Assembly (NCBI GenBank): GCA_947172415.1
Contig: OX359198.1
Coordinates: forward strand, 6,169,401 to 6,233,400
Direction: 5' to 3'
Length of the DNA stretch: 64,000 nucleotides
Origin: Chondrosia reniformis
Taxonomy: Eukaryota; Porifera; Demospongiae; Chondrillida; Chondrillidae
The first letter of the stretch is position 1; each line of letters begins with the position of its first letter. Of the stretch, positions 1-64,000 are shown piece by piece. The notes beneath the pieces were generated by a model, which was not told the origin of the DNA, ran no database searches, and was given only the letters and a program-made list of their open reading frames with translations. The position numbers were made by a program, and so were the translations under genes.

Positions 1-2967
1 GGGATTACCCGCTGCATCAGTTATAAATCCTCCACCTAGCCTTATCCAGCAATCAGCTCTACCTCGACAAAGGGAATTCACATCGTATTCTGTCTTTAGG
101 GTATTTAAATCATCTTCACTTAATTGTAAAACGAGTCGTGGTCCATTTGTAGAGTTTGGATAGCCGCCAGTGAGTGGAACAATGGTGGATCTCAAGATGA
201 CATCTTCATGCCAGTTTGTTAGATTGCCTGCTGTTGGGGATAGATTACTGACATCAACAGTTTCAGAAAAAAGCATAACAAGCTGCCCACTATTGAAATT
301 AAGTATTTCAAATTCCACCAATGAAGGCATTGTTGAATCCACAGTGTAATTGTCAACCTGTAAGAGAATATTCGGTGGCACATTAAATCCATTTCCAACT
401 GTATCAGACACTAGGCTATCTGTGAAGTTGATGTAACAGGAGCTAAAATCTCTACAAATAGGCAAAGCGTTAAGCTGATTGGTGTCTTCTTGAGATAGAG
501 CAATTCTCCACACTTCAGTGTTAATCATTGGTAGAATAGCATTTTGAATGGTAAACTGCACTGAAGGATCACTGGGATCAAACAGAACGATCTGACTCAG
601 GTTAAAGGTGGCCATATTCACTGGCTCTGAGAACAGAAGTGTCAGTACATTGGTGTTCAGATCCAGGTAGGTCATTCTAAGTTCAACATCAGTTGTATCA
701 GCTGTGTAATTGTCAACAATTGGTGCTTCTTCAGGTAGAATTGGGAAGCTAGGATTTTCTACATTATCCTGGACCAAATCCTCAGCAATGGAAAGGTAAG
801 TTGTTGTATTACTGACAGCTAACTCCTGGTTTGCCTTGATACTATTCAGGTCATATTCTGTGAGCTCTAAAATGACTACTGAGAAATCAGAAATTCTGAA
901 ATTCTGGTAGTCACTAAGTGTGACGCTGTTATTTGTGCTGTTTGGTGTACTGATGATTGTTATTTTAGTAGGATCAAAGGAAGCTTCATCAACTGTTTCA
1001 GAGAAGCTTAGAGTCAAAACTCCATTGTCGAGGTCAAGATCAAAATTTTCAAGCCTTGGTCCACTTCTGTCATTCTCAAAGAATGAAGCAGGAATGGGCA
1101 CATTTATCTCTGGAGCAGGATTGCGATACACATCTCTTACAGTGTCATATTCATATCTGATAAAGGTGGATGATCCATTAGTAGCCAAGTTTACATCGGC
1201 CTTGAGTGCATTTAAATCTCTCAGATGGAGGTCAAGCACAACCAGTGACCTTGGCGAGAGGTCAGCAGGAAGAGTGGTATATTCAAGAGCGAATCTGGAT
1301 GCAAAGATGTCTATACTGGCTACTATCTCTATCAGATTGATCTTAAGAGTGGAAGTGTTGACTGCCTCATTAAACTGCAAAGCGAGCTGTGCAGAATCAA
1401 GGCTAAGGTTGAATGATTCCAACATTGGTCCACTCTGATCTCTGATGAGTACTCCAGGGAATGGCTGGCTAGATGCATTGACTGGATTGGAGCTGACGTC
1501 AAAAACTGCAGCTTCAGCAAGCTGAATGAAGGTGTCCAGTTGTGACGTGGCAACACCCATCTCAATATCTATAGCTTCCTTATCATCAATGGTGATGTTA
1601 ATGGTAATGATATAGTCTGTTTCACTAGCAACAACAGATGAAGACAATGAAACTGAAGCATTTCCTGATGTGTCTGTCAAAGAAATGAGGCTAGGTGATA
1701 TGAATGAGACATTGATAACTTCATCAAATGTAAGATGGAGCTGAGGAGCATCCAAATCTAACTGAAAGTTTTCAAGGAGTGGGGCTGTTGTATCAGAAAT
1801 GATTCTGGAAGCTGGTTGAGCACCAGTGGATGGTATAGCAATCAACTTGTTGTTAGAAGTATCGCTAGCAAAATCCTCACTGGCACTAAAGTATGTATTG
1901 CTGTGGTGTACTCCTAGATTGGAGCATCTCTGAATGGCAAACAAATCTGCTGATACTAAGGGAAGAGTGGCAAGATTCAGGTCATAGATTGGAGTACCTC
2001 CAGTCAGTTGTACCACTTCACAGGGCATTGTGTCATTGGTGTTACTGATGTACTGAAGCTGTCCTTCAGATAATAAATCAAGCTTTGTACATTCAGTGAA
2101 AGTGAAGACAAGTGTTCTGCTGTTCAAATCTAAATGGAAAGACCTCAGCGATGGTTTCACTTCATCTGGAATTACTTCAGAAGCAGGTTGGGCTTCCTCT
2201 GTGAGTATTGCCTGCACGGGTCTGCTGTTCATGTCTTCAAAGGCTAAGGAGCTGATAGTTAAAAATGTGTTTCCAGTAGATGTTCCAAGATCAAGTATAC
2301 ACTTGATGCTGTCACTATCTGTAGCCAGTAACCCTAGAGTCACTGTAGGACCATTTTGATCACCAAGGACAACTCCTCTAATGGTGTAATTGGATGTTGT
2401 TTCGGCAGTTATGGCTGCATTCTGTAGTGAGATACTGAATGTGGAGTAGCTTCTAACATTGATGGTCTCATCAAAGTCCAGTATAAGTCGACTTGAATTC
2501 AAATCCAGAATGTAGGACCTCAATACTGGACCTGTTGTATCTGCTATAAAGCCACTAGTACCTGTTGGCAATGCCATATTGCTTGGTATACCAATCAGTT
2601 GGTTCCTAGCAATGTCTTCAGCTGTTTCATTTAATGCAGACAGAGCAGTAGTTGAGGTGCTGATTGCTAGAAGTTCATTTCTTTTGATCTCATTGAGATC
2701 CTCTTCAGTCAAGGAAAGTTCAATAACTGCTGGATTATCAGCCGACCTGGACAACGTTCCATTGGTCAAGGTGAAAGAATTATTAGCAGTGGCCTCAATG
2801 GGTGTAGCCTGAAGTGTAATGCCAGTCACATTGAAGGTATCTATTCTGACTGAGTCAGAGAAGGTGAGATATAGGATTCCTTCGTCCATGTCCAAAATAA
2901 ACTGGCTCAATTCAGGTGGTGTGGTGTCTTCAATTACAAGAGAAGCTTGAACAGCTCTACCATTAGT
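1..2967 (-). repeat. Start of 23-domain block 8 (D162 signature to D170, truncated)
   Basis: It holds the first eight domains after the signature. The first cysteine pair sits exactly where the period predicts: D169 CRDFSSC (436-456) and D170 CRGRADC (49-69). The array therefore continues past the window edge with the same register. Confidence 0.85.
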
Positions 2968-8900: not shown

Positions 8901-11713
8901 CATCTGAATCATCTGCTGCAGCCAAATAAACATTGCCACTGATATCTACTGTCAGATTATCCAATGCAGTGATGTAGCAGGATGCTCTATTGGCACAAAG
9001 GGCTGTATTGAGGTTTATTTCATTCACATCAGAGACCAGTAAATTGACTTGCAAGGTATCAGGTGCAAGAACACTGAAATTAGCTGGACTAAGAGTAAAG
9101 TTGACTGGTGATACACTTGAACTGCTATTCAGTAGAGTGAGGTAGCCTGGTGTGAAGGAGGAGCTCATGACTGGTTCGGAAAACTGCAAAGTTAGGGTGT
9201 TGTTTAGTAGATTAATGTCAAAGCTTGAAATGGTTGGAGGAGTGGTGTCTTCGGTCAAACTGGAAACTTGCAATGCATTATTAATCGGTATCTCTGTCAC
9301 ATTCATGTCTCGCAAATCAAATATTTGTCCACCAGGGATAGACAAGAAGGTGGTTTCTCTGCTAACTGCTAAGAGAATCTCAGCATGAAGGCTGACAATA
9401 TCATCAGAGGACAGTTGAAGGAGTAAACTCCTCGTGTTCTCTACATCATAAATACCATCTGAGAGTGTCAATGATACATTATCACTGAATCTGCTACTTT
9501 GGATGGTTATAAGAGGAGCAGAGAAGGTGGAGATGTTGATACTCTTAGTAAATGTAAGAGCCAGGGTATTGGTATTGAAATCCAGTGAGAAAGCATACAG
9601 CTCGGGTCTGGTCAAATCCACAAAAACATCATCAGCCATAACACCAACTACGGCAAACATGGGATTGCCAGCTACATCTGCTACGGCGCCTTCCATTATA
9701 GACAAGATTGTATCATTAATGGATTCTGCGAGGTCAGTCATCAGCCGCAGCTGGGTTTCATCAAAGGAGCTTAGTTGGATGGTTAAGACCAAAGAGTTTG
9801 GCAGTAAACCGATACTACCTCCTGTTAGGGAGTAGGCAGCTACTGGCGATGGTACGTTGCTTTGAAGGGTAATAAAGGTTGGCTGAAGGCTTTCAGCATC
9901 TACTGTCTCATTGAACGTGAGTAGTAATTGGCCCATGTTGACATCAAAGCTAAAACCAAGCAATTCTGGTCTATTCATATCTTGTGCTATATTTTCAATT
10001 GGATATGACTGTTCTGTAAACTGATTTCCAAATTGATCAATTAAAGCTCCACGGGTAATGTTAACAAAGGTGGTATTAAGGAACCCAATGCCAGACGTTC
10101 CCTTAATGCCATTAAGATCATCAGTAGACAACAGTACATCTAGCACAGTATCATTAGTGAGGATGAAGGAACTGGTAGATGTCAGTGAGTAAACACTGAC
10201 TGTAGAGTCATAGGTTTCCAGATTTTGGAGCAGTATCCGGGTAATATTTATACTGGTCTCATTTACTCTTTCATCAAAAGTGACAACAAGTCTGCCTTCT
10301 TCAAGGTCTAGCATAACAGCAAGAATTCTAGGTGATGTCAGATCTGGAGTAAATTCAGAGACTGGCATTGCTGAATTAGTAGGTATAGGAGCTATAGGAT
10401 TCTCAAAATAGTCAGTGATAAAGTTAGCTCCAATTGAGAGGTAGATGTCATTGCTTGATGTTGCAATCTCGCTAGACTCTCTCAAAAAGTTGGCGTCTTC
10501 AACACTTAATGACACCAAGATGGTTCTTGTGTCCGTTAGAGATAATTCAGGATTAGTTAGCTGTAGGATGGTGGCATTATCAAAGGCTTGATCTGGAGTA
10601 GACTGTAGTTGTAGCTCATTCAGTATTACTGAGGAAAGATTGACTGCCTCTGAAAATCTTAACACTACAATTCCTTCGCCAATGTTTACATCAAAAGAGG
10701 ATAGCATGGGAGATGTTTCATCTGGTAACACGGCAACAGCTTGAAGGGCATCAGTTCCTGAAATGACTATAACCGGATTTCCACTTGTATCTGCAAAAGC
10801 TCTAGCTGCCATGGCAATAAAGGTGTCATTTGTTGAGGTTCCAATAAATGGATTGGAGATGATTCTACCAAAGTCATCATTAGTGAGACCAAATCCGATA
10901 GCAGCTCCACTTGTGGATGGTAAAACGGCAGATGAAAGTGTAATCAGAACAGCATTTGCATCTCTTCTGTCATCAGTACTTTGTAATGTAAGACCAGTTG
11001 GATCGGTCAAATCAATATCTATTGCTTCAGTAAAGGAAAGTCTGAGTAGAGCTTGGTTTAAGTCTAATATGAAAGAGACCAGACTTGGCACAGAAGTGTC
11101 TGGAACTAGAGTAGTTGACGGTAAAGGTTCAGTTGAAAGGATAGGAGGCATTTCGTTGTTGAAACTGTCATAAACAGCCCCAGCTGTGACACTGATGTAG
11201 GTTGTGTCAATATCAATGCTCAGTTTCAAGTTGGATTGGATGCCATTGAGGTCATCTTCAGAGACGTCCACTCGTATGATGGTTCCTGGTGATAGTCTAC
11301 TGGCTAAGGATGAGTTAGTAAAGGTAAATTGTGCTCCGCTACCATCAGCATTTCTGTGAAGTGTAAAGCCGGTGATGTCAAAGGATGTCACATCAATAAC
11401 ATCATTGAAAGTCAGCTCTAGGATGCCAGTATCAATGAGAAGGGCATACTCTATCAAACTTGGTGGGGTTTCATCTCTGATGATGGCCGTAGCTTGAAGG
11501 GCTTTTGAGTTGGTAATGGGAACAACGTCTTCTCCAGTAATGTCATCAATCAAGCTTCCTTCTATAGTGATAAAGGTGGTATTGAGGTAATGTGCAATCT
11601 GTCTGGCACTCTTTATTGCTAGAATATCACGGTTCAGGGAAATACTCAGAGTATAGCCTGTATAGGCATCAATGGTACTAGCAGCTGACAGACGTGCCCA
11701 ATTGTCACTGGTT
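1..11713 (-). CDS. Exon 6 in window: domains D139-D170 (3' end outside window)
   Basis: 11,713 coding bases, open to the window edge, where the last codons read TDAAGNP in the middle of D170. It begins TSDNWARLSAAS after the acceptor. Thirty-one linkers (D140 near 11450 to D170 near 305) could be followed at about 370-nt spacing. Block markers are in register: cysteine loops at 8977-8997, 8592-8615, 4537-4557, 4162-4182, 436-456 and 49-69; the enlarged hairpin of D155 near 5835-5900; the DTALNMPN variant near 3755; the VTNGRAVQA signature at 2965. No stop codon or polyadenylation signal was seen in frame, so the protein continues beyond the window. Confidence 0.94.
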
Positions 11714-14700
11714 CTGTAAAAGGAAAATGAAAAGAGAACACATTAAACTCTGTAAGGGATTCAACTCTTCAATTAATCAGTGATATTAAAAATACTGTTC
11801 ATTTATAAGTGGGTCATCTTTGTATATCTACATATGTACAAACTAGCTACATACGTATATTGTATATACGTACTTAGTATTAGAGGGGAAACATGAGTGG
11901 AGAATTACTGTGGTAATGGTAGCTTAGTAACAGAGCATTTGTGGTTATGACCAGCTGTTCTGGTTTAATTTCTTCTCTCGTGTTTTTCCCTCTTCATGAA
12001 GTTTGAGAATGATTAATTTATTATTCATGCATGCAATCGCTTGTTACCTGTACTAATACTTACCTTGTCACTGCTGACTGAAGTACCACTGCATTGGGGT
12101 TGAAAGTTGATGGATCAATAATGTCACTAAAGGTCAGATACAATATCCCATCTGACATGTCCAAGCTAAATCCTGTCAATTCAATTGGAGTGGTGTCAGT
12201 TGTAACACTGATAGGACGTAGAGAAACAACTTCTCTGAGTGGATTTCCACTGGTGTCATCAAGAGCTTGTGGAGTCACTGATAATGCAGTGTTAGTAGTT
12301 GTGGCAAAAGCACTCATAGAGTGTTTCAAAGTTTGAATGTCAGAGGCATTGAGCCTAAAATGAACTGCATGAGTAAATGTGAGAGAAGACGAGGTTAAAG
12401 TACCTCTTCGAAGTTGACGAGTCACACCAGCAACAGTTAGAGTAAACTCAGTCAAGTCTAGGCTCTCAAGATCAATTACTTCATCAAATGTTAACATCAG
12501 CATATCTGTATCCAAGTTCAAATTGTAGGATGTCAAACGAGGAGATGTAATGTCACGTGTGAGGTTGCCACGCATCCCATTCACTGTCTGAACATTGTTA
12601 GGTTCTAGAGCCAAATCTGTAATTGTGTTTGAAGACAAGGAGATGTAAGTAGCCATTGTCATTCTAGTGGCAAAGGTAGTGTTTTTCAGTTGATTGGCGT
12701 CTTCTCTCGTGAGTTGTACAATGATTTCTTGTCCCTTTGTGCTGGATGTTGAGCCATCTGTAAGTGTATACATTTCTGTAGGTACAAGAGCATCTTGCAG
12801 AGTGATTCCCTGATAAGTAAGGCTTTCAGGATCTACTGGTTCACTAAATGTAAGTAAGAGCTCTCTTCTGTTCATGTCTAGAATGAAAGAAATCAACTCT
12901 GGCTCTATAGCATCAACTACAAAGGTTTGAACAATTGTGTTGGGCATATCTGTTACTGCAGAGATGGACAGATCGGCAGGGTCACTAATGCTTCCTTCAG
13001 AAATAGCAATGTAACAATTTCCTCTCCATGTACAAAGATTTGGATCAGTAATGATTGCGAGAGCATCTGATTCTGATAATGAGATAGCAAGCTGATCTCC
13101 TTGGCTAGTAGGGATGCCTCCTGTCAGAGTAAAGTTGGAGATGGATTCAACTGAGAAAAGTGATTTCAAGGTAAAACCACTTGGTATAAATGATGTGGCA
13201 TTAACTGGCTCTGAGAATGAGATAATAATTTCCCTGTTTGTAAGGTCAATCTGAGTAAACTCAACAAATTCTGGTCTAACGGTGTCAGCTCTATAATCAG
13301 TTACCTGAACAGAGCCTCCATCTGTTCCCAGCCTTCTTGTGTCGTTGAAGGAGCCCTGTGCAAAGCCTAGATAGCAGTCTAGCATTGAGTCACACAGGTC
13401 AATGATTTTGATGGCATTCAGGTCTACATCAGTGAGGAAGAGCCTGAAGAATGACACATCTTCACTTGGTATTATGTAATCAGACTGTAGCATGTATGTG
13501 GTAGAGGCATTTTCCGCTGAGTTCTGGAGTGTAAAGTTGTCCAATGTAATAGTAGAACCAATGACGGATTCATCAAAACCAACTTCAAATAAGCCTGAAT
13601 TCAGGTCTAGAACCACTCTGATAACACTAGGTGGTGTGGTGTCTGTGGCAAGTGATTGAACCTGTTGTACTGTAGCTTCAATGGGGTTTCCATCTCTGTC
13701 ACTTACTGCTCCTGTTGCTATGGAGATGTAGGTATTAGAGATGCTAGTTGCAATGGATGAGTTAGCCAAGATTTGATCACGGACCTCAAATGGAAGGTAA
13801 ATGTCAAGAGTATCGCTGCTTTCTGTGATGGGATTTGCCATAGAGAAATTAAATCTCACTGTTGGATTAGTAGCAGAGTTCTGAAGAACTATCTGATCTA
13901 ATTGAACAGATGTATCTAGGACAGTTTCTGAGAACTGCAAACTGATTGGTTGGCCTGGATTGAAGTTTACATTGAAGAAAAGCAGTTTAGGTGGATCAGA
14001 TTCAATCACTAAATCATCAGCTTGCAAGGCAGCTGTTGATAAAATAGCAAATGAATTGTGGCCATCCTCATCCTGAACAAGACCCTCAAATGGAGCAGCA
14101 AATGTTTTATCCAGTGAGGTGGCAACCTCAAGGACCCCCTTAATGCCATTGATATCTCTTGAGTCCACATTCACAGAGATTGTTGTAATCGTGCTTGAAG
14201 CAACAGTGCCATCATACTGGAAGATGTAACTGTTCATAGGATTAATCTCATCATCTTGAAGGACTAAGTTAGTTAGATCCAATGTAGAGACATTGATGGC
14301 CTCTGAAAAGGTGAGTGTAAGTTCACCATCTATCATATCAAGTGTGAAGTTTAGTAGGGCTGGAGGTTGTAGATCAATCAGAGGACCTGTCACAGGGAGT
14401 GTGATTGGATTTACTTGATTTCCTGAAGTATCTGTTAAGCTACTATTGCTCAAAGTGAGGAATGTGCTAGTAAGATCTACAGCTACTGGTGCAGCTCGGT
14501 TAAAGAGTTCAAGATCATCATTGATAAGAAGAATTGAAACCCTTCTGCTGTTGGATATTGGTAGTGGACTACTAGAAAGAGTAACCATTTCACCTGAGCC
14601 ATTAGAAAACTGATGCAAGACAATCTGGTCATACTGGAAAGATGACACATCAACAGTTTCACTGAATTCCAGAACAAGAGCGGCCGGTGCTTTCCCACTG

Positions 14701-50700: not shown

Positions 50701-53700
50701 ATTCATGTCCAAGTCAAAGCTAACTAGCTCTGGTTCTGTAAGATCAATACCATGAGAGCTGACTGGGAGTGCCCTGTTAATTGGAATTTCAGTGAGTGGA
50801 TTAGAGTTGAAATCTTCCACTGCCCCTGGTAGCACTGATAAAAAGGTAGTCTGGTTACTCACTCCAAAGTTGGTATCAGCTTTAATCAAATTAAGATCTT
50901 CATCAAGCAAATCAACATTCAACACCAACAGAGAACTGCCTAGTTGGACCGTTCCACCACTAAGGGGAAGATTAGTACCTGTTCCTGTCGACTCACTGTG
51001 CAAGCTAAAGTAGGTGACATTGAAGGTGTCAACATCTACTGCTTCAGAAAAACTGAGAATGAGTTGCTCTGTGTCCAGGTTAAGATCAAAGGTTACTACG
51101 TCAGGATTTGTTGAATCTGGAATGAAAGCAGCTGCTGGTTGAACTGCAGGTAGTACACCTTGGCCAGCCAAATCTGAGATGAAATCTGAAGAAATTGAGA
51201 TGATTGTATTGTTGATATTTGTAGCCAAAGTTCTATCAGCTTTCAGAGAGTTGAGGTCATCCGGTATGAGATAGAGATCAAAACTGTAATCAGGTGTACT
51301 ATTGGTGTTTCCTATGATTGTGAGGCCACTGGTTGCATTTTCAGTAGCAACAAAAGTCAGACGATTCCTTGTGTAACTACTTGGGTCAATTACATCATTA
51401 AAGGTAGCTCTGAGTGTTCCAGTATTCATATCTAAACTGTAGTTTTGCAATCTTGGGGAAACTTCATCAGGCCTGAAAGTAATCACCATCAAGGCATTGC
51501 TCGTGTTGAGCCCTGGATGATAGTTATCTGCAGTGTCTTTCAGAGTAAATGGAGCAAGAATTAAGTAAGAGGTGGTGTCAGAAGTGCCTAACCCTGAGGT
51601 TAGTCTTAGAGATCGGTAGTCAGAATCTGTAAGAGTAATCTCAATTGCTCTCTTATCACTTACATCAGTGTGCATAATAGCACCACCAGTTAGTGTAAAG
51701 TTTACACCTCCAGTTGACATTGACTGCAATGTTATTCCCATCACATTCACTGCATCTGAAATTGGTTCATTTGCTGTGATAATTATTCTTCTCTCATGGA
51801 TGGCCAACTCAGTGAACTGGAGAATTGAGGGAGGGGTTGAATCTAGAGTGAAGTTTGCTGCCTGGGATGCATTCTCTACTGTGATGGAAGTAATGGAATT
51901 ACCACTTGCAGCTCCAGCTCCAACGTCTCTGATGAAACCACTGCCGTAAAACACAAAAGTGGTGCTCAAGTTAGTTGCTAGTTGTAGATTAGCTTTCAGG
52001 GCTATCTCATCATTGTTTCCAATAGTTATCTCCACAAAGGTTTCATCAGTAGTTGTGAGACGTGTTGAGTCAGTAAGTGTGTACTGAACTGTTCCATTGA
52101 TAGCATTGATGAAACTTAAATCAGTAGCACTTGTGGCAGCTGCATCAACAACCTCATCAAATGAGAACTGTACAATAAGAGTATCCATATTCAAGGAGAA
52201 GTTGAGCAGTCGTGGTGGTGTACTATCCTCTGTTATGGAACCAGCAAACTCACTTAAAACAAATGAGGATGACGTTGGTTCAATTGCGTTTCCTGATCTA
52301 TCAGTCAGCAAACCTTCTCCAAAATCAATATTACAAGTCAGAGGACTACGACAGAGCCTACGTTGTCGTTTCACAGCATTAAAGTCTTCATCTGATAAAG
52401 AAATAACAATAACATCACTGTCAAGAATTGGTAAATTGCCACCTGAAAGTCTAACTGATTGTCCATCATTAGTGAAACGTTCATTCAGAGTTACAGAAGA
52501 AAGATTAAAGCTATCCACACTGACAGTTTCTGAGAAGGACAGAGTTAATTCACCAGAGTTGAAATCCAAGTTGGTGAACTGCATTAGTTGAGGTCTTCGG
52601 GAGTCATTACTGAAAGAGTCAATCTGTTTCCCATCCAGGATGGCAATAATGCTATTGCCAGCTGTATCATCCCCTAGAAGCTGTGTGAAGGTGATAAAAC
52701 AGTTTGAAAGGTTGGTACAAAGGTCAGGCTGGGTCAATCTGATGGCATCTTCCACTGCCAGGCTGATAATGATGTCAGTGTAGTTAGATACCACAAAGGT
52801 AGATGCACTAGTCAATTGGTAGCTTTGACGGTTTTCCGTTCCTGCAGGTCCACTATGTAGCTCTATCTCTGTCAACAGCACTGTATCAGGGTCTACTGCC
52901 TCACTGAACACCAATGTCAGTATCCTCTCATCTAAATCCAAAGAAAATGTCTCTAGAAATGGATTAACTGTGTCTGGTTCAAGATATGATGCCTGCCTTA
53001 CGACATTATCAATGGGCCTTCCATTGGCATCATACAGAGCCCCAGCCAATAGCTGGATAAAGGTGTTGTTGACAATGGTTGCTAGGTTTCTGTTGGCTTG
53101 AATAGCACCAAAGTCAAATTTAGTAAGAGTTAGTTCAATTGTGTCTGTAAAGTTACTCATGGCTGTTCTCATACTTAGTGTCACAGAGGCATTTGGCATG
53201 GAATTATTGTCACTCTGTACAATCACCCTGGTTGGATCAAGGCTCATCACATTAACAGTCTCTGAAAAGAGAAGTGTGATTATTCCTGTGTTTAGACTGA
53301 ATTGGAAATCCTCAAGAACTGGCATTGTGGTGTCGTTGACGTAGACTGAGGCTTGAAGCGGACTGTTCTCAATGATACTATTTTGTGATGCATCCTGGAT
53401 GGCACCAGTTTGAAGAACGATGTAGGAGGTAGTTCTGTCCTTGTACAATCTGGGGAATCTACCAATGGCATTGAAGTCAACAGGTGAAAGTTCAATCAAA
53501 ACAGTTCCTCCACTGGAGCTATTGGTGAAGCTATTTCTTGACAAAACATAAGATTGTGGTTGGCTCATATCTCCATTTTCCAGTCTCACAAGTGTGACAA
53601 CTAAGGTTACTGTATCAACAGGCTCATTGAACTCTAAGAGCAAGGTGGAAGCTTGCATATCAACCTCTAGACTCATGAGTTGGGGTGGAGATGAGTCTCG

Positions 53701-56700
53701 TATGTACTGAGATACTGGAAGGACTGGGTCAGTGGCCTCAATTGCATTCCCATTAAAATCAAAGGTAGCACCAAAGCTCACATTAAGATAAGTGTTAGAA
53801 GAACTGGTAGCTAATAGTGGCTCCAACACAAGGCTGTTGACGTCTTCCACTCCCAGCTGCACGACTATGATGTAATTGTCAGCTGGTTCAGCTGCACTGT
53901 TACTAAGGGTTACGGATGGATCAGCAAAGGTGGCATTAGCTGATGGTTGGATGGTTAAGTATGAAACATTTAGTGTGGATCCACGGACAATTTCATCAAA
54001 GGTCAAAATTAGCTGTGAAGAATTCAAATTTAATGTAAAGTTTACAATTTGAGGGGGCTGACCATCGGGTATCACATTCTGTGCTTGTGAAGCATTGTCA
54101 GAGCTGTATGGTATGATTGGTATGTTAGCTGTGTCTCTGAAGGCATCCAAGGTGAAGGAGAGGAAGGTGTCATTAGTACTTGTGGCCAAATCAGTGATAA
54201 ATTTAATGGCATTTGCATCATCAAAGTCAAGAAGAAGTGGCAGTTCATACCAGTTATCCCGGAGGAATTCTCCTCCACGGAGTACCACAGAGCAATCTGG
54301 AGCTAATACAGAGCTGTTTTGAAGGGTAATTTCTTCAGGTCTGAAAGAAGTAACTAGCACAACTTCACTAAATGTGAATGTGAGAATAGTAGTCTCCATG
54401 TTCAAGGAAAGTAACAGCAGCTCAGGTGGTGTGTTATCAGGTGTAAAGGCATCAGCCCTTACTGCAACATCCTCTGGTATTTCCAGAACTCTGTTAGCAT
54501 TTGCATCAGTAATGGCAAATGGGAGAATACTTGTGTACGTTCTGAATCTAGATGTGGCTAAATTGAGGTTTGCTTGAAGTTGACTGCGATCTTCAAGATT
54601 CAGGTTTACTTCAAGTATAGTATTGTTGATAACAGATATAGTCCTACTAGTTAGAACAACTGTTTGACTTGTGCTCAATTCCGTAACATTTCTGAAATTC
54701 TGTAAGATAACACCACTAGCATTGAATGAACTTTCAAGGACTGTTTCTGAGAAGGTTAGCATCAAAACACCAGTGTTCATATCTAATTCAAAGCTCCTAA
54801 GCTCTGGGTCAGTGCTATCTGGTGTATAGTTGGCTGGCATTACCTGAACTTCAGGGAATACCATATTGCCTGCCAAATCTTCAATAGCGTTAGCAGTCAT
54901 ATTGAGCAAAGTATTATTCTGAGTTGTGGCAAGGTCAACTTGAGCTTTGATGTTGTTGAGGTCAAAGTCAGTGAATGTTAAGATGGCAGTAAATCCATCA
55001 TTAGATCTCTCAATTGAGTCCAGACCTGTTAGATCATAGAATGTTCCAGTTTCACTGTACAGAGTTAGTCCTTCAAATGATACACTACTAGCATTGATGT
55101 ACTCAGAGAAAGTTAGTAGTAATTGTCCTGCATTCATATCCAAGCTGTAACTGGCTAGTGATGGCCTAATATCATCAGATACAAAATCGTTAACCTGAAG
55201 TGCATTTCCATCAGTAACAGCTAAAACATCCAAAGCACTTGTATCATCCACTACATCAGCAGTGATGGTAAGAAAAGTATCATTTTTATCTGTTGCCAAG
55301 CCAGCAATGCTGTTCAGCTGCAAGAGGTCGTTTGGTGATAGTTCAACGACAAACAAGTTACCATTTTGGCTATTGGTTCCACTGCCAGAAGTGAGTGAAA
55401 AGTAGGGAGCAGAAGGGTTTGATCTGCGATCTATTACAGACTGAATAATTATGCAATTTGGACAAGCGGTAAAAGTCATGGAGTCAGCAATATCTGAAAA
55501 TGTCAAATTTAGAAGACCTCTGTTCATGTCAAAATCAAAACTGATGAGCCTTAATCTGGTAAGTGGAGATTGGTATACATCTGGTGGAATACAGGTCACA
55601 TTCCTTAGTAAATTTCCAAAATAATCAGTGACCGCTCCCGCAGCAACATGTAGTCTGGTTGTTTCAGCAGAGGTTGCCAAAGTAGTATCAATTTTGATGG
55701 TTCTGACATCATCTGAGGAGAGTTGCAGTCTCAGTACCATAGGACTGGAGCTGGCAAGTATTTCTGGATTAAGATCCACTCTAGATGAATTACAACTGGA
55801 ACTGATGGCAAATGAAGATCTCATTACTGTACTGGTATTGAAGGGCTCATCGAATGTGATCAAAAGTTCATTCACATCAATGTCCAAAGTATACATTACT
55901 AACATTGGTGGGGTGCTGTCTTGAATGTATGATGTAACTTGAGTGCCATTTGTGGCTGGAAGATTGGCATTGGGTATCAAGGCTAGATCAAAAACAGTTT
56001 CGTTTCCAAGGACAACTAATGTATCATCAACACCAGTACCAAATTGATCAATCTTGATGGCATTTACATCATCATCAGACAAAACAACTGATACTATGCT
56101 GGCTTCTCTCAATGATTTCCTGGCTTGCTGAGGTTGCAGACTTTTAGATGAATCTGCAGACTCACTTTGAATGGTAATTCTAGATGCATTGAAAGTCTCG
56201 ATGCTGATTGGTTCATCAAAGGTCAAAAGTAACATTCCTCTATTGAGATCAAAGGTGGAATTGAGCAGCTCAGGAGGTGATTGGTCAAAAATAAACATGT
56301 CTACCAACAACCCAGGAGATTCTTCAGAGACTGCAGAAGAAGGCATTCCAGAAGTGTCCTCAATAAGACCAACTGAAGCAGACACATAGCAGTCACCTCT
56401 GTAAACACAAACATGGACATCAGCTTTTACAGCAAAGAGATCCTCTTCAGCCAGCATGAATCTAAGAAGGGGACCAGAGGTTGAGAGTACCGTCCCTCCC
56501 ATGGTAATAGGAACTGTACTTAAGGGGTTGACAAAGAGACCTTGGAGGACAAGTCTGTCTGCACGGAAAGTTGAGTGATTTACAGACTCACTGTACATCA
56601 ATGTCAACAATCCTTCATCAAGATCGAATTGAACAAACTGCTCAATGTAAGGTGGAGTAATGTCATTGATAACTTCTGTCATCATTAAAGAGAAATCTAC

Positions 56701-59700
56701 AGATCCTCTATCTGCCATGTCAAGTGTGATATTTTCTGGAAGATCTATGTAGCAGTCATTGGAAGCATTGTTGGAACAGAGAGGTAGAGATTTGATAGCA
56801 TTCAAATCATCATTTGAAAGCTGTATGGTTAAGATAGGAGAGTCTATCATGACAACTTGACTGGAATTGAGAGTAAAGTTGGCAGTGGAGGCATAGGAGG
56901 CTTCACTGTACAGAGTTACTTGGAATACATCAAAGGCTGATGAATTTACAGTTTCATTAAACTGAATTGTCAGTATTTCTGCATTTAGATCCAAAGTGAC
57001 GCTTATAACACCAGGTCTGTCAGAGTCATCAGTAAAGTCATCCACAATCCTGGCTCCTGATGAGCTGATTGCCCTCAATCTATTTTCATTCATATCAAAG
57101 ACACTGTCTGCTGCTATAGTGATGAAAGTGGTATTCATACCAGCAGCTATTTCTGCTTCACTCTTCAAGGAATTCAGATCCTCATCAGTGAGTTCCAAGG
57201 TAACAACATCTGATGGCATTGTGGGTAGTACAGTTCCTCCTGTAAGGGAGACAGTCCCTGTAGGGTTTAAATAGGAGCCTTGGAAAGATATTAGTGAAGG
57301 ATCAAAGCTGGAAGTATTGACAGTCTCTGAAAAGGTCAGTGTGAGGATGCCAGTGTTCAAATCCAAGCCATAGGAACTGAGAGAGGGGCGGATGAGATCT
57401 TGCTCAAAATCAAAAGCTGGAAGGGCACCAGTCACAGGTATTATTTCATTTCCTAAGCCAGCCTTGTCTTGGATGAATCCTTGAGCCAGGGATACAAAGG
57501 TAGTCTCTAGGCTGATGGCTAAGAATGGTTCGGCCCTAAGGGCATTGGAGTCCGCAGGATCCAGCTCTAGTATCACAATGTTGGACTCTCTTCCAGTTAT
57601 TGTGAACACTCCGCTACTCAGAGTAACACTGATATTGGCACTGTCATTCCTGCTTTGAATTGTTAAGGATGATGCTTGAATATTGTTACCAAGCAGTTCG
57701 TCATTGAATGTCATAGTCAAGATGTTTCCGGTGAGGTCAAGGGTAAAGCTAAGGAGTTCTGGTGGCTGGAAATCAGCTGTGATGTCTCCTGCTTGTACAC
57801 CAACAGTTATTTCTTGAAGTGGATTACCCGAGGTGTCATTAATAGCTCCAAATGGAAGAATCATGTATGTCCTCTCTTGGTTCTGTCCAATAGGTGGCAT
57901 CTGTCTAATTACCTCAACATCTGAACTGTTGATTATGACAGTAATATCTGGTCCATTGCCACCAATAATCTGAGCTGTTGTTAGGGTATAGTTGGTTGTA
58001 GGTCCTATAGGTGCTGCTTGTAATGTGATGGCATCGAGATTCAGTGTGGAAGCCACTACTGTCTCTGAAAAGTGCAACAGAACTAGAAGGTCCTGACCTG
58101 AAGTGAACAAGTCAAATCCTTGCAAAACAGGTGAAGTAGTGTCATTAGTGAAATTAGACACTTGTATTGCAGAAGATATGGGGATTGATACAAGTGGATT
58201 TCCTGAGGTATCATTAGCAGCTTCGGAGGTGACTGAGAGGAAGGTATTGCTCATTTCAGTTGCTAGATCTGGTAAGTTCTTGATTTCATTAAGGTCATCA
58301 TTTGAGAGAACAAGAGTAATAATGTTAGAATCTGAACTTTCTAGCATGGCTTCAGTGGGCATGTAGCTAGCAACACCAGTTCTACTGTCCCTGAAGATGA
58401 ACTCAGATATGTTGACAGATTCAGCAATAATCACTTCAGAGAAAGTCAATTCTAAGGTACCAGAGTTGAGATCAAATGCAAAATCATCAAGGGTAGGACT
58501 GTTCATATCCAGCACAATTGTATCAGCTTGTTTTGCAGCAGTAGGGGGAATACCTATTACTGGTCTACCACTGGTGTCGAGAATGCTTCCTTCTTCAACA
58601 TACAAGTAAGTGTTGTCAATTGAGGTAGCTATTCCAGGAGTCCTTTGCAAAAAGAAGAAATCTTCATCCGTAAGCTGAACAGTCACCACTGGCCCATACT
58701 CTGGAGTAATGTTAGCTCCAGGTGTGAGTTGCCTGGGAACAAGGACAGTCCCTACTTGCAATGTGTTCATGGTGTTAAGCAGGGTTAGCTGACTGATATT
58801 CAAGCTTGAGGTATTCACTGTTTCATTGAAGGTAAGAAGAAGACGGCCATCATTCAAATCCAAGGTGAAGGATTGTAAATTTGGTCGGTTTGTATCAGGT
58901 GTTAATTCTGTCACAGGAATAGCAGCAGAGTTAGGCAGCTGCAAAATTTCTTGCCCGTTCAAATCTAGAACTGCAGCTGTACGGTAACTCATGAAGGTAG
59001 TCTCATTAGAAATTGCTAATGATATGTCCCCTTTGATTGCATTCAGGTTATCCAAAGTCAGTATAATCGAAACATCTGGTCCGTCCTCTACAGAAACTGT
59101 TCCATCTAAGTAAACATTACAGGTTGTAGAAGCTCTGCTTGCCAGCAAGCAAAATTCCATTGGCATCAATAAACTTGCATCCACAGACTCATCAAAGGAT
59201 AACTGTATAAGTCCATTATTTAGATCCAAATTGAAAGATGCTAAAGAAGGTGGAGATGTGTCAGGAATTTCCATATTTGCAGGTTGAGCGTTATCACTTG
59301 AAATTGCAGTAACATTGTTTCCAGCCATGTCCTGAATGGCTACTTCCGTTAAGGATAAGAAAGAGAGAGAAATTCTGTCACTGTTGTTTACAATGGAATC
59401 AGCTTCTTTGATAGTATTGAGGTCATTGTTGTCAAGGAAAACACTAAATGTCACAGCTGCAAAGGTTTCACTTGTGGTTACACTATTTGATAGAACGAGA
59501 GATATGTTTGAATTATTCGCTCTGTCTTGCAAGGTAAACTCTGATGGTCTGAGAGAAGCAATGTTAACAGTTTCAGAAAACACAAGTAGCAGTGCACCCT
59601 CATTAAGATCCAAGCTATGCTGTAGCAGAACAGGTGATGTTGTATCAGGAGTGTACATTTGGACTAGCTCACTTCGACTGGACACGATGGCATCAACTGG

Positions 59701-62700
59701 ATTGGAAAATCTGTCATCCAATGTTTCAGCTGTCATTGTCAGGAATGTATCATTCTGCATGGTAGCCAAGAGATGTAGTTCCTTGATCCTGTTCAAATCT
59801 ATGTCAGTGAGATTCAGGTCTAAGGAGTAGTAGTCCTGAGAAGTTCTACTACGCTCTCCAGTAAGAGTGTACGACTGATTAGCCTCAGAGGAAGATCTGG
59901 CACTTTGAAGTGTTATCTTTGTAATATCAAATGTTGTTATATCAATGACATCATCAAAATAGAGTGATAAGATCCCCAAATTCATGTCCAATTCATAATG
60001 TTCCAGTGATGGATTGGTAATATCAGACATGTAACTCTGTGCCTGCAGTATGCCAGCAATGATGTCATTATCAGCTGGATCCACAAAGGCTCCATTGCTG
60101 AAATTCAGGAAACTACTAGCTCTTCCTCTTGCAAAGTCATTTCTAAGTTTAATGACAGCTAAATCTTCCCTGGAGAGAGAAATGATCAACTCCAAATTTC
60201 TTGATCCAGACAATGCTGCTACCTGACTACCAACTAGTTGGTGAGCGAAGCCACCGGTTGCTTGGGACTGCATTAGTATCTCAGAAATGTTAACATCTTC
60301 AGCTAAAATTGGTTCACTAAATGATAGGTGAATTTCACCTTCATCCATATCCATGAGCGTGAAGATCCTTAATTCTGGTTTGATGGTGTCTGGGATAAAA
60401 TTATCTACTCTGAGAGAATTGACTCCGGTAACTCTAGCCACAACACCTTGTGCAGCTATATCAGTTATAGCATCAGAAGAAAGAATCAAGAAGGTATCAT
60501 TCTGTCCAGTGGCTAGGGTGGGGTCAGACTGTAGATTGATAATATCATCTGCAGTGAGTCTTACTGTAACTATTGAATCAAAAGTTGTATCCAGTATATT
60601 GCTGGGAATTAGGGGCTCCAAGGCTATGCTAAAGTTGGAATCAAAAGATCCCTGGATTCCAATAAAACCTGTTCTCAATCTTCTGTGATCCACAGTCTCA
60701 TCAAAAGTGAAAGATATTTGCATGTTCGTCAAATCTAAGGAGAAGGCCATTAGGTTTGGAGGAATATCATCCTCTATCAGATTGGATGGTGTTTCTGTTA
60801 AATCTGGTATACGTTTGTTAGTCACTTCACTGCTAGGGTTTCCATTCATATCCCCTATAAAATTTCCAGTTAAACGAATGTAGCAAGTAACTTGAGTAGA
60901 ACAGATTGCTGTTTCTGGTAAAGCTTGAGTAGCTTTAAGTCTGTCTAGATCTTCATTAGACAGTTGGATGGTGACCTCTGGTCCATTTTCTCCTATAGCC
61001 ATACTACTATTGCTAAGCATTAAGGATGTGAATGTAGGAATACTATCATCTGTCCAACTCTGCAAAATGATTTCACCTGGCTGTGCTGTACTGATATTCA
61101 CAGTTTCAGAAAAGCTAAGAGATAACGTACCATTGCTCAAATCAAGAACAGTAAACTGAACAAGGTCTGGTGCTTGACCATCTGGGATAAAGTTTGCAGA
61201 TTGGGAAGCATTCATAGATGACCTTTCATTGACTGGGTTTTGAAACACATCAACAAAGGCAGCTTCAGTGAAGGAGATGTGACAATTTTCAGCAGAATTA
61301 CACAAAGATAGTCTGAAAACTTCATTAAGTGATGTCATATCCAGTCTCAATTCCATTGATTTGGAATCTGCACTCAGTACTGTACCATTACTTATGGAAA
61401 CACTATATCCTGAGGAAATATTGGCAGTTTCCTGTAGAGTAATTGCTGAGAGGTCAACACCACTTGCAAGAATGGGTTCATCAAAATACAAAGTCAACAC
61501 GCCACGATTCCAATCTACATCAAAATATTCAAAATTAGGTCTTGTAGTATCTCTTGTATACACCAAAGCTCTCAAAGGAAGGTTGCTAATATCTAGAGCA
61601 TTTCCTGCTGCATCAGCTATGGCATCTGCTGTTAGAGAGACATACGTATTGGTAGAAGATCTGGCCAATGGAGGCAAGGCTTTGATGGTGCATAGATCTT
61701 CTTCAGGGATGGTGATCACAAAGGAAGAACCATTTCTCATTGTAGTAAGGTCTCCAGTAATTGTAAAGGTCTGTGTTGGCGTAGTCGCATCTTGTAGAGT
61801 CACCTTAGTAACATCTAGTGAAGTGTAAGCAAGGAATTCATCAAAACGGAGTGTCAACTCTCCGGTGTTGGCGTCAAACTGGGCACGGGTGAGTGTAGGA
61901 GCTACAAAATCAGGTCCTCCAGCAGTTCCTACTCTAATTGAGTTGAGTTGATTATCATTAAAGTCAAGCACAATAGCATTACTGATGGTCAAGGATTGAG
62001 TATTTCCGATGTCTGTTAGACTTCTAAATTCATCTGCACTCAGGGTAATCTCAATATCAGTCAAGGAAGGCGTGTAGGTAACATTTGACGGAATTAGCCT
62101 ATATGTGGAGGCATTGGATACTGTAGAGGCAAAAGTTACAGATGTAAGGGTATCAATGTTTATTACTTCATCAAAAGATAAAAATACCGTGGACTCCTCT
62201 ATGGTAAAACCAATAAGATTTGGTCCAGTTGTATCAGGTATAGTTTCATTGGCTTGGAAAATACCAGTCATGTTAAGGTTGACGTTAGTGTAATCCCTTA
62301 CTGTTCCTTCTTGGAGTTGAAAGAAAGTGTTAGATAAATCAGTAGCAATGTTGAGGTTCCTCTTCAAAGTATCAAAATCTAAAGCAAAAAGCTGCAAGTA
62401 GAGTTCAGTCTGGTCTGCTGATCTCCTATCATTGGCTGCTGGATTGGAACTCAAGGGGGTAGGTGTAGTCCCAGCACTATCACTGTATACAGTAACTTCA
62501 GACAGTGTAAATGTACTCAACTGAACTGATTCATCAAATGTAAGATTTAGATATCCATAATTCATATCCAAAATGGAATAAATTACAATAGGTGGAGTCA
62601 TATCTGGAACATGGTCTGCTGCTGGAAAGGCATCGGAGCTTGACTCTTCTAAAACATTAAACTCTCTGGTGTTTCTGAAAGTGGTTTCAGGGAAGGATAT

Positions 62701-64000
62701 CCAGGTGGTGCCAACATCTGTAGCCAAGTTAACATTAGTTTTCAAAGCATTCAGGTCAGCTGAACTTAACTGTATATTAATAAAGGCTGTGTTTTCACCA
62801 TTCACAGTTCCTCCAACAAGAGTGTAATAGCTGTCTGCTACTTGCATTGAACTGCTTTGGATGGTAATTTGATCATACAAGATGCTGTCAAGGAGGATTA
62901 CCTTAGAAAAGTTAAGGTTTAGGACTCCTGTATTCATATCTAAGGTAAACTGTCTTAGTGATGGTCTGGTTACATCAGCTGTGAATAAATCAGGTTCTAC
63001 TCGAATAGCACTAGTGTTTAGGATGGGTTGGGCATAGTTTCCACTGGTATCTTGGATGGTAAAAGAATTCATGGTTAGGAAGGTGTTGCGATAGGATGTG
63101 GTTAAAGTTAATTGCATTTGTATTCCAAACAAATCATTTTCCAAAAGAGATATCTCAACTATTGTTCCATCAGTTGACATACTGATGCCACCAGTCAAAG
63201 AGTAATTAACTGATGCTTCTAAAATAGTTTCCAAGTCTTGAAATCCAATTCCAGAAGCATCCAAAGTTGAAGTAGAAACAGTTTCATCAAACGTAAGAAC
63301 AAGGAGACCTTCATTCATATTAAGCTGGTAGTCCAATAGAATTGGTCCAGTTACATCTTCCATGAACATGCTGGCATTTAAAGGTTGGTCCATAGAGACT
63401 CCTACTACAGGGTTTCCCAACAAATCGGAAACACTGTTCTCAGCAACACTAAGGAAAACAGTAGAAGCATTCACAGCAAAGCTCCTGTCCAGTTTCAAGA
63501 AATTAAGGTCATCAGTGAGAAGCTCAATAAAGATGGTTAAACCATCAGTAGATGAAGTTACTGAAGTAGCACTAAGAGGCAATTGAGAGGGTGCTGCAGT
63601 CATTGGCAAACTTAACAGAATGAAATCACTGAACACTATGGTAGATGTGTTTACTGTGTCATCAAAGGTGACATTTAGAAATCCATGGTTCATATCCAGG
63701 CTAAATGACAATGGGTTTGGACGAGTGTTGTCAGCAGTGTAATTTCTAACTCTGATAGCTTTACCATCAGTAACTGCCAACACATCCCTACTCAAAGTAT
63801 CATCTACGGCAGAGGCTCGTATGGTAACATAGGTGTCGCTGGCCATTGTTGCCAAACCAGGTAGCAGCTTCAGACCAAAATGGTCTTCAGGAGATAGTTG
63901 AACAGTAAGAGCATACCCATTAGGACTGCCAGTCCTACTACCCGAGGTGAGCCTGTAGACTGAACCTCCCTCTGAATTTTCTCCAGGTTGGAACTGCAGT
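1..64000 (-). CDS. Giant tandem Ig-like-repeat protein, internal part of one gene (both ends outside window)
   Basis: Six exons join in one frame: 62,767 coding bases, 20,922 codons, roughly 2.2-2.3 MDa for this part alone. All of it is a single domain of about 123 residues in 170 consecutive copies. Each copy has a linker like PDTTPPxLxxF, then LDLNTGxLxLTFSEPV, xxSTFNxSxITLQ, YTLTGG, DLNAIK, LATSxxNTYLS and DxxGNPV. Alternating hydrophobic stretches suggest a beta sandwich, and the wording resembles SwmB or SbsA-type (Big_5) Ig-like domains; that family call is from memory of sequence style, not a search. NxS/T sequons are frequent and no membrane span or signal peptide is seen here, so an extracellular or cell-surface structural or adhesive role is inferred, not shown. 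Splicing order is 64000-37636, 37311-36490, 36366-17201, 16904-16683, 16542-12064, 11713-1. Start, stop, promoter and any anchoring domains lie outside the window. Confidence 0.93.
2968..11514 (-). repeat. 23-domain block 7 (D139 to D162 signatures), 8,547 nt
   Basis: Ends at VTNGRAVQA (2965). Cysteine loops: D146 CANRASC (8977-8997), D147 CTASAFTC with one extra residue (8592-8615), D158 CRNSSFC (4537-4557), D159 CSTHGSC (4162-4182). The enlarged hairpin of D155 reads NNRLPLVLTLIFDEAV (about 5835-5900); the D160 variant reads DTALNMPN (near 3755). There is no intron in the block. Confidence 0.9.
11714..12063 (-). other. Intron 5 (350 bp, phase 2)
   Basis: Donor AAG|GTAAGT (the consensus form), acceptor TTCATTTTCCTTTTACAG|A with a long pyrimidine tract. 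The split codon AG+A gives Arg in SAVTRTSDNWARL. This is the longest intron in the window and is AT-rich, with repeated TACATA/TACGTA words around 11820-11880. No coding potential or structured element was recognised in it. Confidence 0.93.
12064..16542 (-). CDS. Exon 5: domains D127 to D139 (first third)
   Basis: 4,479 bp, 1,492 full codons with one leading and two trailing bases. It starts VTLDTSPSTITGFTLDMN and ends VVLQSAVT plus AG at the donor AAG|GTAAGT. The Leu (TTG) codon at 16499 is internal, not a start. It includes the block-register markers: an enlarged first hairpin in D132 (near 14665-14715), the cysteine loops of D135 (13374-13394) and D136 (13014-13034), and the DLALEPN variant in D137 (near 12603). 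Several copies here (D129-D131) are a few residues short, and with other small losses this makes the surrounding 23-domain block the shortest one. Confidence 0.95.
16543..16682 (-). other. Intron 4 (140 bp, phase 2)
   Basis: Donor CAG|GTTAGT, acceptor CTCTGCTTTTTCTGCAG|T with a good pyrimidine tract. The split codon AG+T encodes Ser. It joins GIQAS to SVTLDTSPSTITGF, so the intron lies in the interdomain linker between D126 and D127. Confidence 0.92.
16683..16904 (-). CDS. Exon 4: C-terminal part of D126
   Basis: 222 bp encoding 73 full codons plus one base at the start and two at the end. It reads YNLTGGNAELSPSD, LAAEDVVILRDNDMLATS, DTFLVLKN, DFSNNPLVVITNQGIQAS, which is precisely the second half of one repeat. 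It ends at the linker between D126 and D127, making this the only exon boundary in the window that falls on a domain junction. Donor CAG|GTTAGT. An apparent extension to 16924 or to 16658 is intron sequence read through. Confidence 0.93.
16905..17200 (-). other. Intron 3 (296 bp, phase 2)
   Basis: Donor CAG|GTGAGT, acceptor TTATTGTTTAG|C. The split codon AG+C gives Ser, and the join GVGSIS to YNLTGG restores the YTLTGG motif of D126. An in-frame TGA follows the donor immediately. It is AT-rich with a TACATATGTA word near its acceptor side; no other feature was seen. Confidence 0.92.
17201..36366 (-). CDS. Exon 3: domains D74 (second half) to D126 (first third)
   Basis: 19,166 uninterrupted coding bases (6,388 codons plus two bases). 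It starts LGVTDANRIKSISGLAEQLNNTY directly at the acceptor; the apparent start nearer 36291 is an internal TTG (Leu) codon, not a real start. It ends SSSSGVGSI plus AG at the donor CAG|GTGAGT, phase 2. It covers about 2.3 of the 23-domain blocks. D96 is shortened, D92 has an extra YCVIGSC pair, and D107 carries an enlarged cysteine-containing insertion near 24060-24115 (CHLVTTPRC). All other copies keep the length and order of their block positions. Confidence 0.95.
20692..29211 (-). repeat. 23-domain block 5 (D93 to D116 signatures), 8,520 nt
   Basis: Ends at ITDGKALEA (20689). Cysteine loops: D100 CRSLEDC (26734-26754), D101 CTRAFDC (26362-26382), D112 CTMESIC (22216-22236), D113 CASRGSC (21850-21870). 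The enlarged hairpin of D109 is near 23500-23560, and DLALAPN of D114 is near 21435. D107 is enlarged by an insertion with its own two cysteines, while D96 is short; the two changes roughly cancel in block length. Confidence 0.9.
36367..36489 (-). other. Intron 2 (123 bp, phase 0)
   Basis: Donor ACA|GTGAGC and acceptor CTTTACTATAG|CTT on the minus strand. Joining IQLT to LGVTDANRIKSI rebuilds the normal IxLSxxDLNAIK segment of D74. It is very AT-rich and includes the palindrome-like TATACATATGTA. There is an in-frame stop soon after the donor if unspliced. Confidence 0.92.
36490..37311 (-). CDS. Exon 2: end of D72, D73, start of D74
   Basis: 822 bp, exactly 274 codons, phase 0 on both sides. 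It starts at the acceptor with ESGSDQSFTFSP and ends KRIQLT at the donor ACA|GTGAGC. It includes the linkers LDTAPPSLADFELDMNTG and PDSESPILMNFELDL, so the tandem period continues through it without a break. D73 is a divergent copy: its YTLTGG region reads ITLGLPSVSPVSR and its LATS region reads IAFTENNTFVTV. It is too short to be a natural domain module on its own, because it begins and ends inside domains. Confidence 0.93.
37389..37446. repeat. Intronic inverted repeat, 20-bp perfect stem
   Basis: Arms at 37399-37418 and 37422-37441 are exact reverse complements over 20 bp, separated by only three bases (GCG). A further 6-bp match (CATTAT at 37389-37394 with ATAATG at 37441-37446) extends the pairing past a small one-sided bulge. 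The transcribed pre-mRNA would form a tight hairpin in the middle of intron 1. It may be the remnant of a small foldback transposon or a chance or functional intronic hairpin; no flanking target duplication was established. Confidence 0.85.
37602..37619. repeat. 18-bp perfect palindrome near the donor of intron 1
   Basis: TACATGTAC followed by GTACATGTA, a self-complementary 18-mer 16 bp inside the donor site. Related TACATGTA or TACATATGTA words appear in all five introns: near 36435-36448, 16980-17000, 16610-16616 and 11830-11870. They look like a genome-wide simple-sequence habit of the organism more than a splice signal. Confidence 0.7.
37636..64000 (-). CDS. Exon 1 in window: domains D1-D72 (5' end outside window)
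   Basis: An uninterrupted coding stretch of 26,365 bases (8,788 codons after one leading base) that is still open at the window edge. The frame upstream of 63855 remains open and continues the same domain: it reads QFQPGENSEGG, then YRLTSG, then LTVQLSPEDHFGLK. It holds domains D1 (cut) to the first third of D72, and just over three 23-domain blocks. Its 3' end is the donor AAG|GTCAGT, with the last coding base at 37636 after FTLRNK, and the intron follows in phase 0. Reading on past the donor gives about 15 residues unlike the repeat and then a stop, which supports the splice. Extra cysteines outside the usual loop occur in D14 (59119-59151), D23 and D24 (near 55455). D39 carries an additional full CxxxxxC loop (49753-49773). 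Confidence 0.95.
38179..46686 (-). repeat. 23-domain block 3 (D47 to D70 signatures), 8,508 nt
   Basis: Ends at ITDGKAQIA (38176). Cysteine loops: D54 CFNEDNC (44194-44214), D55 CRTRVGC (43822-43842), D66 CQDTTNC (39727-39747), D67 CTTRSTC (39352-39372). The enlarged hairpin of D63 is at about 41022-41083 (NGTLPLYLVLLFDEP), and the DLALxPN position in D68 reads DLSYIRN near 38935. D48 has an unusual pair of cysteines 23 residues apart. Confidence 0.9.
46687..55215 (-). repeat. 23-domain block 2 (D24 to D47 signatures), 8,529 nt
   Basis: Ends at ITDSNALPA (46684). Cysteine loops: D31 CTNLSNC (52699-52719), D32 CRSPLTC (52333-52353), D43 CFNETNC (48253-48273), D44 CTVRGNC (47875-47895). It has one extra loop, D39 CKARATC (49753-49773), in a position where the other blocks have none. 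The enlarged hairpin is in D40 (49568-49632, PSHPVPFRLELSYDEP) and the DMALPANPN variant of D45 is near 47464. Confidence 0.9.
55216..63771 (-). repeat. 23-domain block 1 (D1 signature to D24 signature), 8,556 nt
   Basis: Bounded by the signature codons of VTDGKAIRV (63769) and VTDGNALQV (55213). Cysteine loops: D8 CNSAENC (61282-61302), D9 CSTQVTC (60883-60903), D20 with a longer CxxxxxxxC loop (56752-56778), and D21 CVYRGDC (56389-56409). The DLALIPN variant of D22 is near 55980. The enlarged first hairpin of D17 is at about 58051-58118. This block has the most stray cysteines of all (D14, D23, D24). The 229 bases from 63772 to 64000 belong to D1, the last domain of the preceding block. Confidence 0.9.
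56389..56409 (-). other. CVYRGDC loop: RGD closed by two cysteines (D21)
   Basis: The loop that in most domains reads LATSxxNTY here reads VCVYRGDCYV, with RGD at 56392-56400 between two cysteines six residues apart. RGD in a disulphide-closed loop is the classical integrin-recognition arrangement. The same block position in other blocks reads CTVRGNC, CTTRSTC, CSRRGTC, CASRGSC, CTWRGNC and CSTHGSC, so an Arg-Gly turn is typical of the position but true RGD is seen only here. Function is inferred, not shown. Confidence 0.6.

Follow-up and report, generated by a model that had tools for sequence, protein, structure and literature searches.

A 23-domain super-repeat of titin-like architecture in a giant, predicted secreted protein of the sponge Chondrosia reniformis

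To our knowledge, giant proteins with super-repeats are known mainly from muscle, where the register of the repeat encodes filament length. In the A-band of titin, the C-zone consists of 11 copies of an 11-domain pattern and the D-zone follows a 7-domain pattern; each C-zone super-repeat is about 43 nm long, and the thick filament becomes shorter when two of them are deleted (excerpts from PMC5648799). Among sponges, a giant protein of 49,014 amino acids, Avas.s016.g412.i1, is encoded by one 147-kb exon in the glass sponge Aphrocallistes vastus (excerpts from PMC10282587). Here we describe gene A, which lies on the minus strand of chromosome 10 of the demosponge Chondrosia reniformis. It was met in a stretch of 64,000 nucleotides (nt), positions 6169401-6233400 of contig OX359198.1 (GenBank assembly GCA_947172415.1), hereafter the window, in a genome of 117,379,552 bases in 15 contigs. 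The predicted protein is a single chain of similar domains ordered on two levels, as in titin.

The window covers the middle of gene A, which extends past both window edges; coordinates below are those of the window, continued beyond its ends. Open frame and canonical splice sites define nine exons and eight GT-AG introns with all junctions in phase. The spliced coding sequence of 124,299 nt predicts a protein of 41,432 amino acids (4.49 MDa) that is acidic (isoelectric point 4.05) and has an excess of N-glycosylation sites. Judged by eye, exon 1 (104814-104745) encodes a signal peptide, and no membrane anchor was found at the C-terminal end. The protein comprises 335 tandem immunoglobulin (Ig)-like domains, A1 to A335, in which acidic residues at profile columns 3, 27 and 104 (D3/E27/D104) are nearly invariant. 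The stop codon, at -21300, falls within a domain, and an AATAAA was noted by eye about 150 nt beyond it. This truncated final domain is not a modelling error, since seven homologous fragments stop at the same half-domain; the last letters of the relatives P0001, P0003 and P0163 are identical (TLTGN).

Our results reveal a layout of 14 x 23 + 13 domains, that is, fourteen units (A1-A322) in register and then a 13-domain tail. Across the whole protein, domains at lag 23 share on average 29.8% identity, compared with 26.1% for all pairs, and the top 13 places among lags 1-324 all go to multiples of 23 (23 to 299). The remaining multiple, lag 322, lies outside the top 25 because it pairs unit 1 with the off-register tail, for which no offset fits well (best z 3.5). 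When rare identities were weighted, the multiples from 23 to 253 made up 10 of the 11 strongest signals and the twelfth. Furthermore, leave-one-out assignment of domains to their phase, or position in the unit, was correct for 158 of 335 domains (47.2%, against 4.7% on average and at most 7.8% in 20 label shuffles), and the nearest domain shares the phase for 87 of 322 domains, with 13 expected. The signal is also strong in the window by itself: across its 168 domains, centred similarity at lag 23 was 6.70, while 2,000 shuffles of domain order gave 0.10 +/- 0.53 with a maximum of 1.78, and the maximum at any lag from 1 to 99 across 300 shuffles was 3.24.

The super-repeat is thus real. A first-pass annotation of the window had proposed a fixed two-level architecture like that of titin, and the lag-23 tests bear this out in the window and in the whole protein, domains 23 apart being more alike than those at other lags. 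Its 170 tandem domains, counted from A109 (its D1), correspond in the spliced translation to 168 complete domains and one cut at each end. It had put the tandem copies at 7.4 or more; the register stands, and the actual count is 14 full units. The TDGKAL-type ending reported at D1, 24, 47, 70, 93, 116, 139 and 162 is recognisable at all eight places, at several of them as variants such as TDGNAL, TDSNAL, TNSKAL and TNGRAV, and we reproduced exactly the coding spacings given between them (8556, 8529, 8508, 8520, 8520, 8391 and 8547 nt). Domains of this type occupy phase 17, which has the highest within-phase similarity of all. A second marker, DLALxPN, fared less well, as it holds at D22, D114 and D137, reads DMALPAN at D45, and has drifted at D68, D91 and D160.

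The register is also marked by cysteine-loop domains, as had been claimed: cysteine pairs are present at phases 1, 2, 13 and 14 in every one of the 14 units. At the exact profile columns 87 and 93, the pair occurs in 13, 14, 13 and 14 of the 14 units at these phases, and elsewhere in 2 of 266 domains. The resulting doublets are spaced alternately 12 and 11 domains, and relatives retain the pair in 81 of their 85 corresponding domains. Outside their own class, phases 1, 2, 4 and 5 are nearest to phases 13, 14, 16 and 17. This pairing fits the signals at lags 11 and 12, which are present and weaker than that at lag 23, and suggests that the 23-domain unit is likely to be an old 12+11 duplication.

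Evidence for the age of this order comes from relatives. Protein searches gave 301 matches (120 of them listed), 58 and 12, and the identified species among them are Ephydatia muelleri and Dysidea avara. After removal of 29 short domain pieces from 23 of the first 120 proteins, 107 of the 120 listed could be placed unambiguously, 24 of them on gene A, 17 on gene B and 66 on gene C, the latter two being giant genes of the same contig described below. The identified matches on A are from Ephydatia, and the three from Dysidea avara fall on B and C. Placed fragments from the first and second searches leave no domain of A (335), B (127) or C (121) uncovered, and A is covered in full (335/335) even without P0141, the window's own protein. 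All 24 gene A fragments keep the 23-domain register at z > 4, and none does so with its order reversed. A pooled count, in which 54 of the 120 first-search proteins were in register at z > 4 (1 of 120 when reversed), was set aside, since it mixes genes (24/24 placed on A, 3/17 on B, 21/66 on C, 6/13 unplaced); on C, the fragments concerned come from the N terminus and open with a cysteine doublet that resembles that of A, and the register argument therefore uses the A rows alone.

The fragments match particular units as well as phases. On average, the 24 share 37.2% identity with the positional counterpart, 29.5% with the same phase in other units and 26.3% with other phases, and this ranking holds in each fragment. 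In 23 per-phase trees, built without P0141 and after dropping 36 of 1,500 domains as gappy, 1,250 of 1,464 domains from 44 relatives were nearest to the same-unit Chondrosia domain, where chance predicts about 105; the test is not fully independent, because fragments had first been placed by whole-fragment similarity. A domain-level alignment of 44 fragments on A, again without P0141, contained no internal gain or loss in 1,606 domains, a count that is blind to losses near fragment ends. The same alignment gave 3 and 26 extra pieces in B and C and none missing; some of the extras may be domains split by cutting. From the same-unit affinities and the shared half-domain ends, we infer that the array was amplified and its units diverged before the lineages of these relatives split, with little change since and the order kept almost domain for domain. 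Five long fragments (P0129, P0135, P0140, P0145 and P0157) have the register at z 9.8-13.1, the 12/11 cysteine pattern and weak ties to single units, and may come from deeper lineages.

As for the domain itself, the first-pass annotation had called it SwmB/Big_5-like, which holds as a Big_5/SbsC-like resemblance of fold, not as family membership. In Pfam scans of two 2,000-amino-acid stretches and 57 single domains of gene A (E <= 0.1), no model reached its cut-off and there was no match to SWM_repeat (PF13753), Ig (I-set), Fn3 or Calx-beta. Big_5 (PF13205) matched 5 of the 57 domains weakly (best E 0.0036) and at best scored 15.7 bits, in a 2,000-amino-acid stretch, against a curated cut-off of 23.6. 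Structure prediction for a domain pair gives the SbsC-like bacterial Ig fold, a beta-sandwich, at 12% identity to the S-layer proteins SbsC and SbsB (PDB 4uic, 4uj6, 2ra1, 4aq1), for which we know of no super-repeat of the 23-domain type. The top Foldseek rows from the PDB, mostly antibodies, were set aside at a template-modelling (TM) score of about 0.2, and a profile search of PDB sequences gave three weak matches, to other proteins (best E 0.022). A weak bacterial relative in a Methylococcales metagenome-assembled genome was among the matches listed (32% identity over query residues 5-109). Four of 58 long matches (P0146, P0162, P0177, P0178) have the domain without the 23-register; P0162 and P0178 carry PF00020, which means that the domain is perhaps not confined to sponges.

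Compared with titin, gene A encodes a similar kind of molecule: a single giant chain of beta-sandwich domains (335, and about 300 in titin) in a fixed two-level order with a constrained register. In contrast to titin, it uses one domain family instead of two, lacks a Pfam Ig or Fn3 match in the parts scanned, has 14 copies of a 23-domain unit and few introns, and is predicted to be secreted rather than placed in muscle; a ruler role would be assigned to it by analogy. Avas.s016.g412.i1 is likewise a giant sponge protein, encoded without introns; the excerpts of its source give length, mass and exon and describe no domains. It is longer than the gene A protein, and we dropped the label "largest animal protein" for that reason (PMC10282587). 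The first-pass annotation had considered the architecture undescribed, and we found no description of such a sponge protein architecture in the open-access literature; what has been published is the longer protein, by length alone. Titin already illustrates the principle; new to us are the domain family of gene A, the place where it occurs, its scale and how deeply it is conserved.

What might such a protein do? By analogy, the fixed unit number suggests that it serves the sponge matrix as a ruler or scaffold, and we give an even chance to a titin-like extracellular scaffold or ruler, a secreted, calcium-stiffened filament with periodic docking sites. With a length of ~4 nm per domain, the secreted chain would form a filament of about 1.3 micrometres. 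Related bacterial domains bind calcium, and the acidic residues near the domain junctions of gene A could, as their conservation suggests, bind calcium and stiffen the filament. The cysteine-loop doublets would then present docking sites for matrix or cell-surface partners at a spacing of about 45-50 nm, and the phase-17 domains at about 90 nm. A bolder and more tentative proposal is that sponges have an old counterpart of titin outside the cell. Gene A would encode a megadalton secreted ruler, its number of domains and its register set before demosponges radiated and retained since; with two sister giants whose size is almost constant (127 and 121 domains), it would make up an animal matrix system not yet described, with periodic filaments stiffened by calcium and more than 1 micrometre long.

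Several observations weigh against an array so fixed and so functional. P0017 (Ephydatia) and P0136 pass directly from A2 to A4, A3 being lost or missed by the gene model, and we dropped a claim that no domain had ever been lost; a loss of this type, near a fragment end, is one that the gap alignment would miss. The placed Ephydatia fragments cover only ~100 of 335 gene A domains, full coverage being pooled across sources. In addition, 177 of 335 domains were assigned to a wrong phase by leave-one-out, and phases 7, 8, 9, 20, 22 and 23 have little within-phase similarity. Finally, the freezing of the array may be passive.

This last point leads to the main rival explanation, which we regard as somewhat unlikely: early unequal exchange of an 8.5-kb unit made the array, the copies diverged to the point where recombination could not alter their number any more, and the register itself serves no function. 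Today in-phase domains share only about 30% identity, and Tandem Repeats Finder (periods up to 500 bases) found one trivial 14-base repeat; with DNA similarity gone, the usual route of copy-number change would be switched off. Yet the retention of cysteine pairs (14/14 units, 81/85 domains of relatives) and the likeness of phase-17 domains, far greater within their class than among the rest, show long-term constraint on particular phases.

Alternatively, the chains could act in cell-cell or self recognition in the manner of an aggregation factor, with repeats for avidity and reach and not for length, which we consider unlikely. The core protein of the sponge aggregation factor has Calx-beta repeats and a Wreath domain. 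The gene A protein is predicted to be secreted, is acidic and is rich in N-glycosylation sites, and both IPT/TIG and Calx-beta domains occur in P0030, which is related to gene C. Yet no recognised adhesion domain was present in the scanned parts of gene A, its end has no membrane anchor, and a fixed order is unnecessary for avidity alone.

Cleavage of the secreted chain into working pieces of 23 (or 12 and 11) domains seems very unlikely. A furin-like basic site does lie between A1 and A2, near 103930 on the minus strand, and similar basic sites occur there in P0136 and P0153; by eye, the site is absent from five other relatives (P0006, P0032, P0033, P0128, P0017), and A1 may be cleaved off in one lineage. 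Such processing is unsupported by the distribution of R-x-[KR]-R sites, of which there are three in 41,432 residues, in three different phases and none recurring at unit borders. That separate genes or a collapsed repeat were misread as one gene is scarcely credible: the Ephydatia relatives are annotated as many gene models, but exons of 66.7, 22.0 and 19.2 kb are free of stops, every splice junction is in phase, and fragments of independent origin are collinear with the gene; two of them are EukProt entries whose names look like those of transcripts, P0008 (on A309-A335) and P0129 (which keeps the 23-register).

With gene A, the super-repeat principle familiar from titin recurs in a predicted matrix protein of sponges that belongs to another domain family, is encoded with few introns and is conserved domain by domain in relatives. 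Two questions become testable: whether selection acts on how many domains a giant protein has, and which components other than collagen made up the matrix of early-branching animals. The features of gene A and its sister genes are listed in Table 1.

Table 1. Positions of exons, units and marker domains of gene A and of the sister genes B and C (window coordinates unless a chromosome is named)
Feature	Coordinates	Strand	Remarks
Exon 2 of gene A	37636..64000, on to 104324	-	66,689 nt in total; A110-A179 complete in window; open frame, splice sites in phase
Exon 3 of gene A	36490..37311	-	splice junctions in phase
Exon 4 of gene A	17201..36366	-	19,166 nt; splice junctions in phase
Exon 5 of gene A	16683..16904	-	splice junctions in phase
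Exon 6 of gene A	12064..16542	-	splice junctions in phase
Exon 7 of gene A	1..11713, on to -10302	-	splice junctions in phase
Exons 8 and 9 of gene A	between -10365 and -21300	-	splice junctions in phase
Unit 6 (A116-A138)	52981..61557	-	domain cutting and register
Unit 7 (A139-A161)	44476..52980	-	domain cutting and register
Unit 8 (A162-A184)	35494..44475	-	domain cutting; 2 introns within
Unit 9 (A185-A207)	27007..35493	-	domain cutting
Unit 10 (A208-A230)	18448..27006	-	domain cutting
Unit 11 (A231-A253)	9256..18447	-	domain cutting; 3 introns within
Unit 12 (A254-A276)	706..9255	-	domain cutting
Cysteine-loop doublet, phases 1-2 (A116-A117)	60778..61557	-	opens unit; cysteine pair at columns 87, 93
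Cysteine-loop doublet, phases 13-14 (A128-A129)	56293..57033	-	cysteine pair; domain pair used for structure prediction
Phase-17 domain A132 (D24 of the first-pass annotation)	55183..55572	-	TDGKAL-type end; top within-phase similarity
Gene B	105776-153724 and from 153936	+	127 domains, 15,993 amino acids; almost one exon
Gene C	chromosome 10, 7520058-7567592	-	third giant gene, 121 domains; 1.3 Mb from A; open frame of 15,845 codons

Gene B stands head to head with gene A, and about 960 bases separate the two start codons. It encodes a likely signal peptide and the same domain, and its product is also predicted to be secreted. It has a super-repeat of its own, of 18 domains, with lags 36, 18 and 54 at z 7.0, 6.3 and 4.3. 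In gene C no convincing super-repeat was found (best lag z 2.5); by eye, the sequence after its domains resembles the IPT/TIG and Calx-beta part of P0030. Split domains were merged in both genes, two in B and three in C. A search of the sponge's own genome gave at least 137 domain matches, all on the window's contig, with 88 of 244 candidates scored.

Exons for SRCR and transmembrane segments were considered as the C terminus of gene B and rejected, since its second exon ends in ...NPIQGCRSLTPRPG followed by a stop; relatives from Dysidea (P0130) and Ephydatia (P0182) end like gene B. Directly downstream lies a small separate gene (~154380-155541, plus strand), whose product combines an SRCR domain (Pfam E 3.8e-23) with a likely signal peptide, a hydrophobic segment and a tail rich in proline. 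In Ephydatia muelleri, G018687, 694, 697 and 699 map to A247, A89, A51 and A3, G018703 and 704 fall on B58 and B76, and the end of G018705 is like that of B; going by the gene numbers, the A-B pair is conserved there. In the series EMCRGX_G018687 to G018705, what is apparently one such pair of giants has been annotated as a large number of single genes, which suggests that gene annotation splits giants of this kind into many pieces. Beyond the other end of gene A, a minisatellite at -72383 to -70723 is open in several frames, with HHPRTPSLQ and VLGWCCRL repeats.
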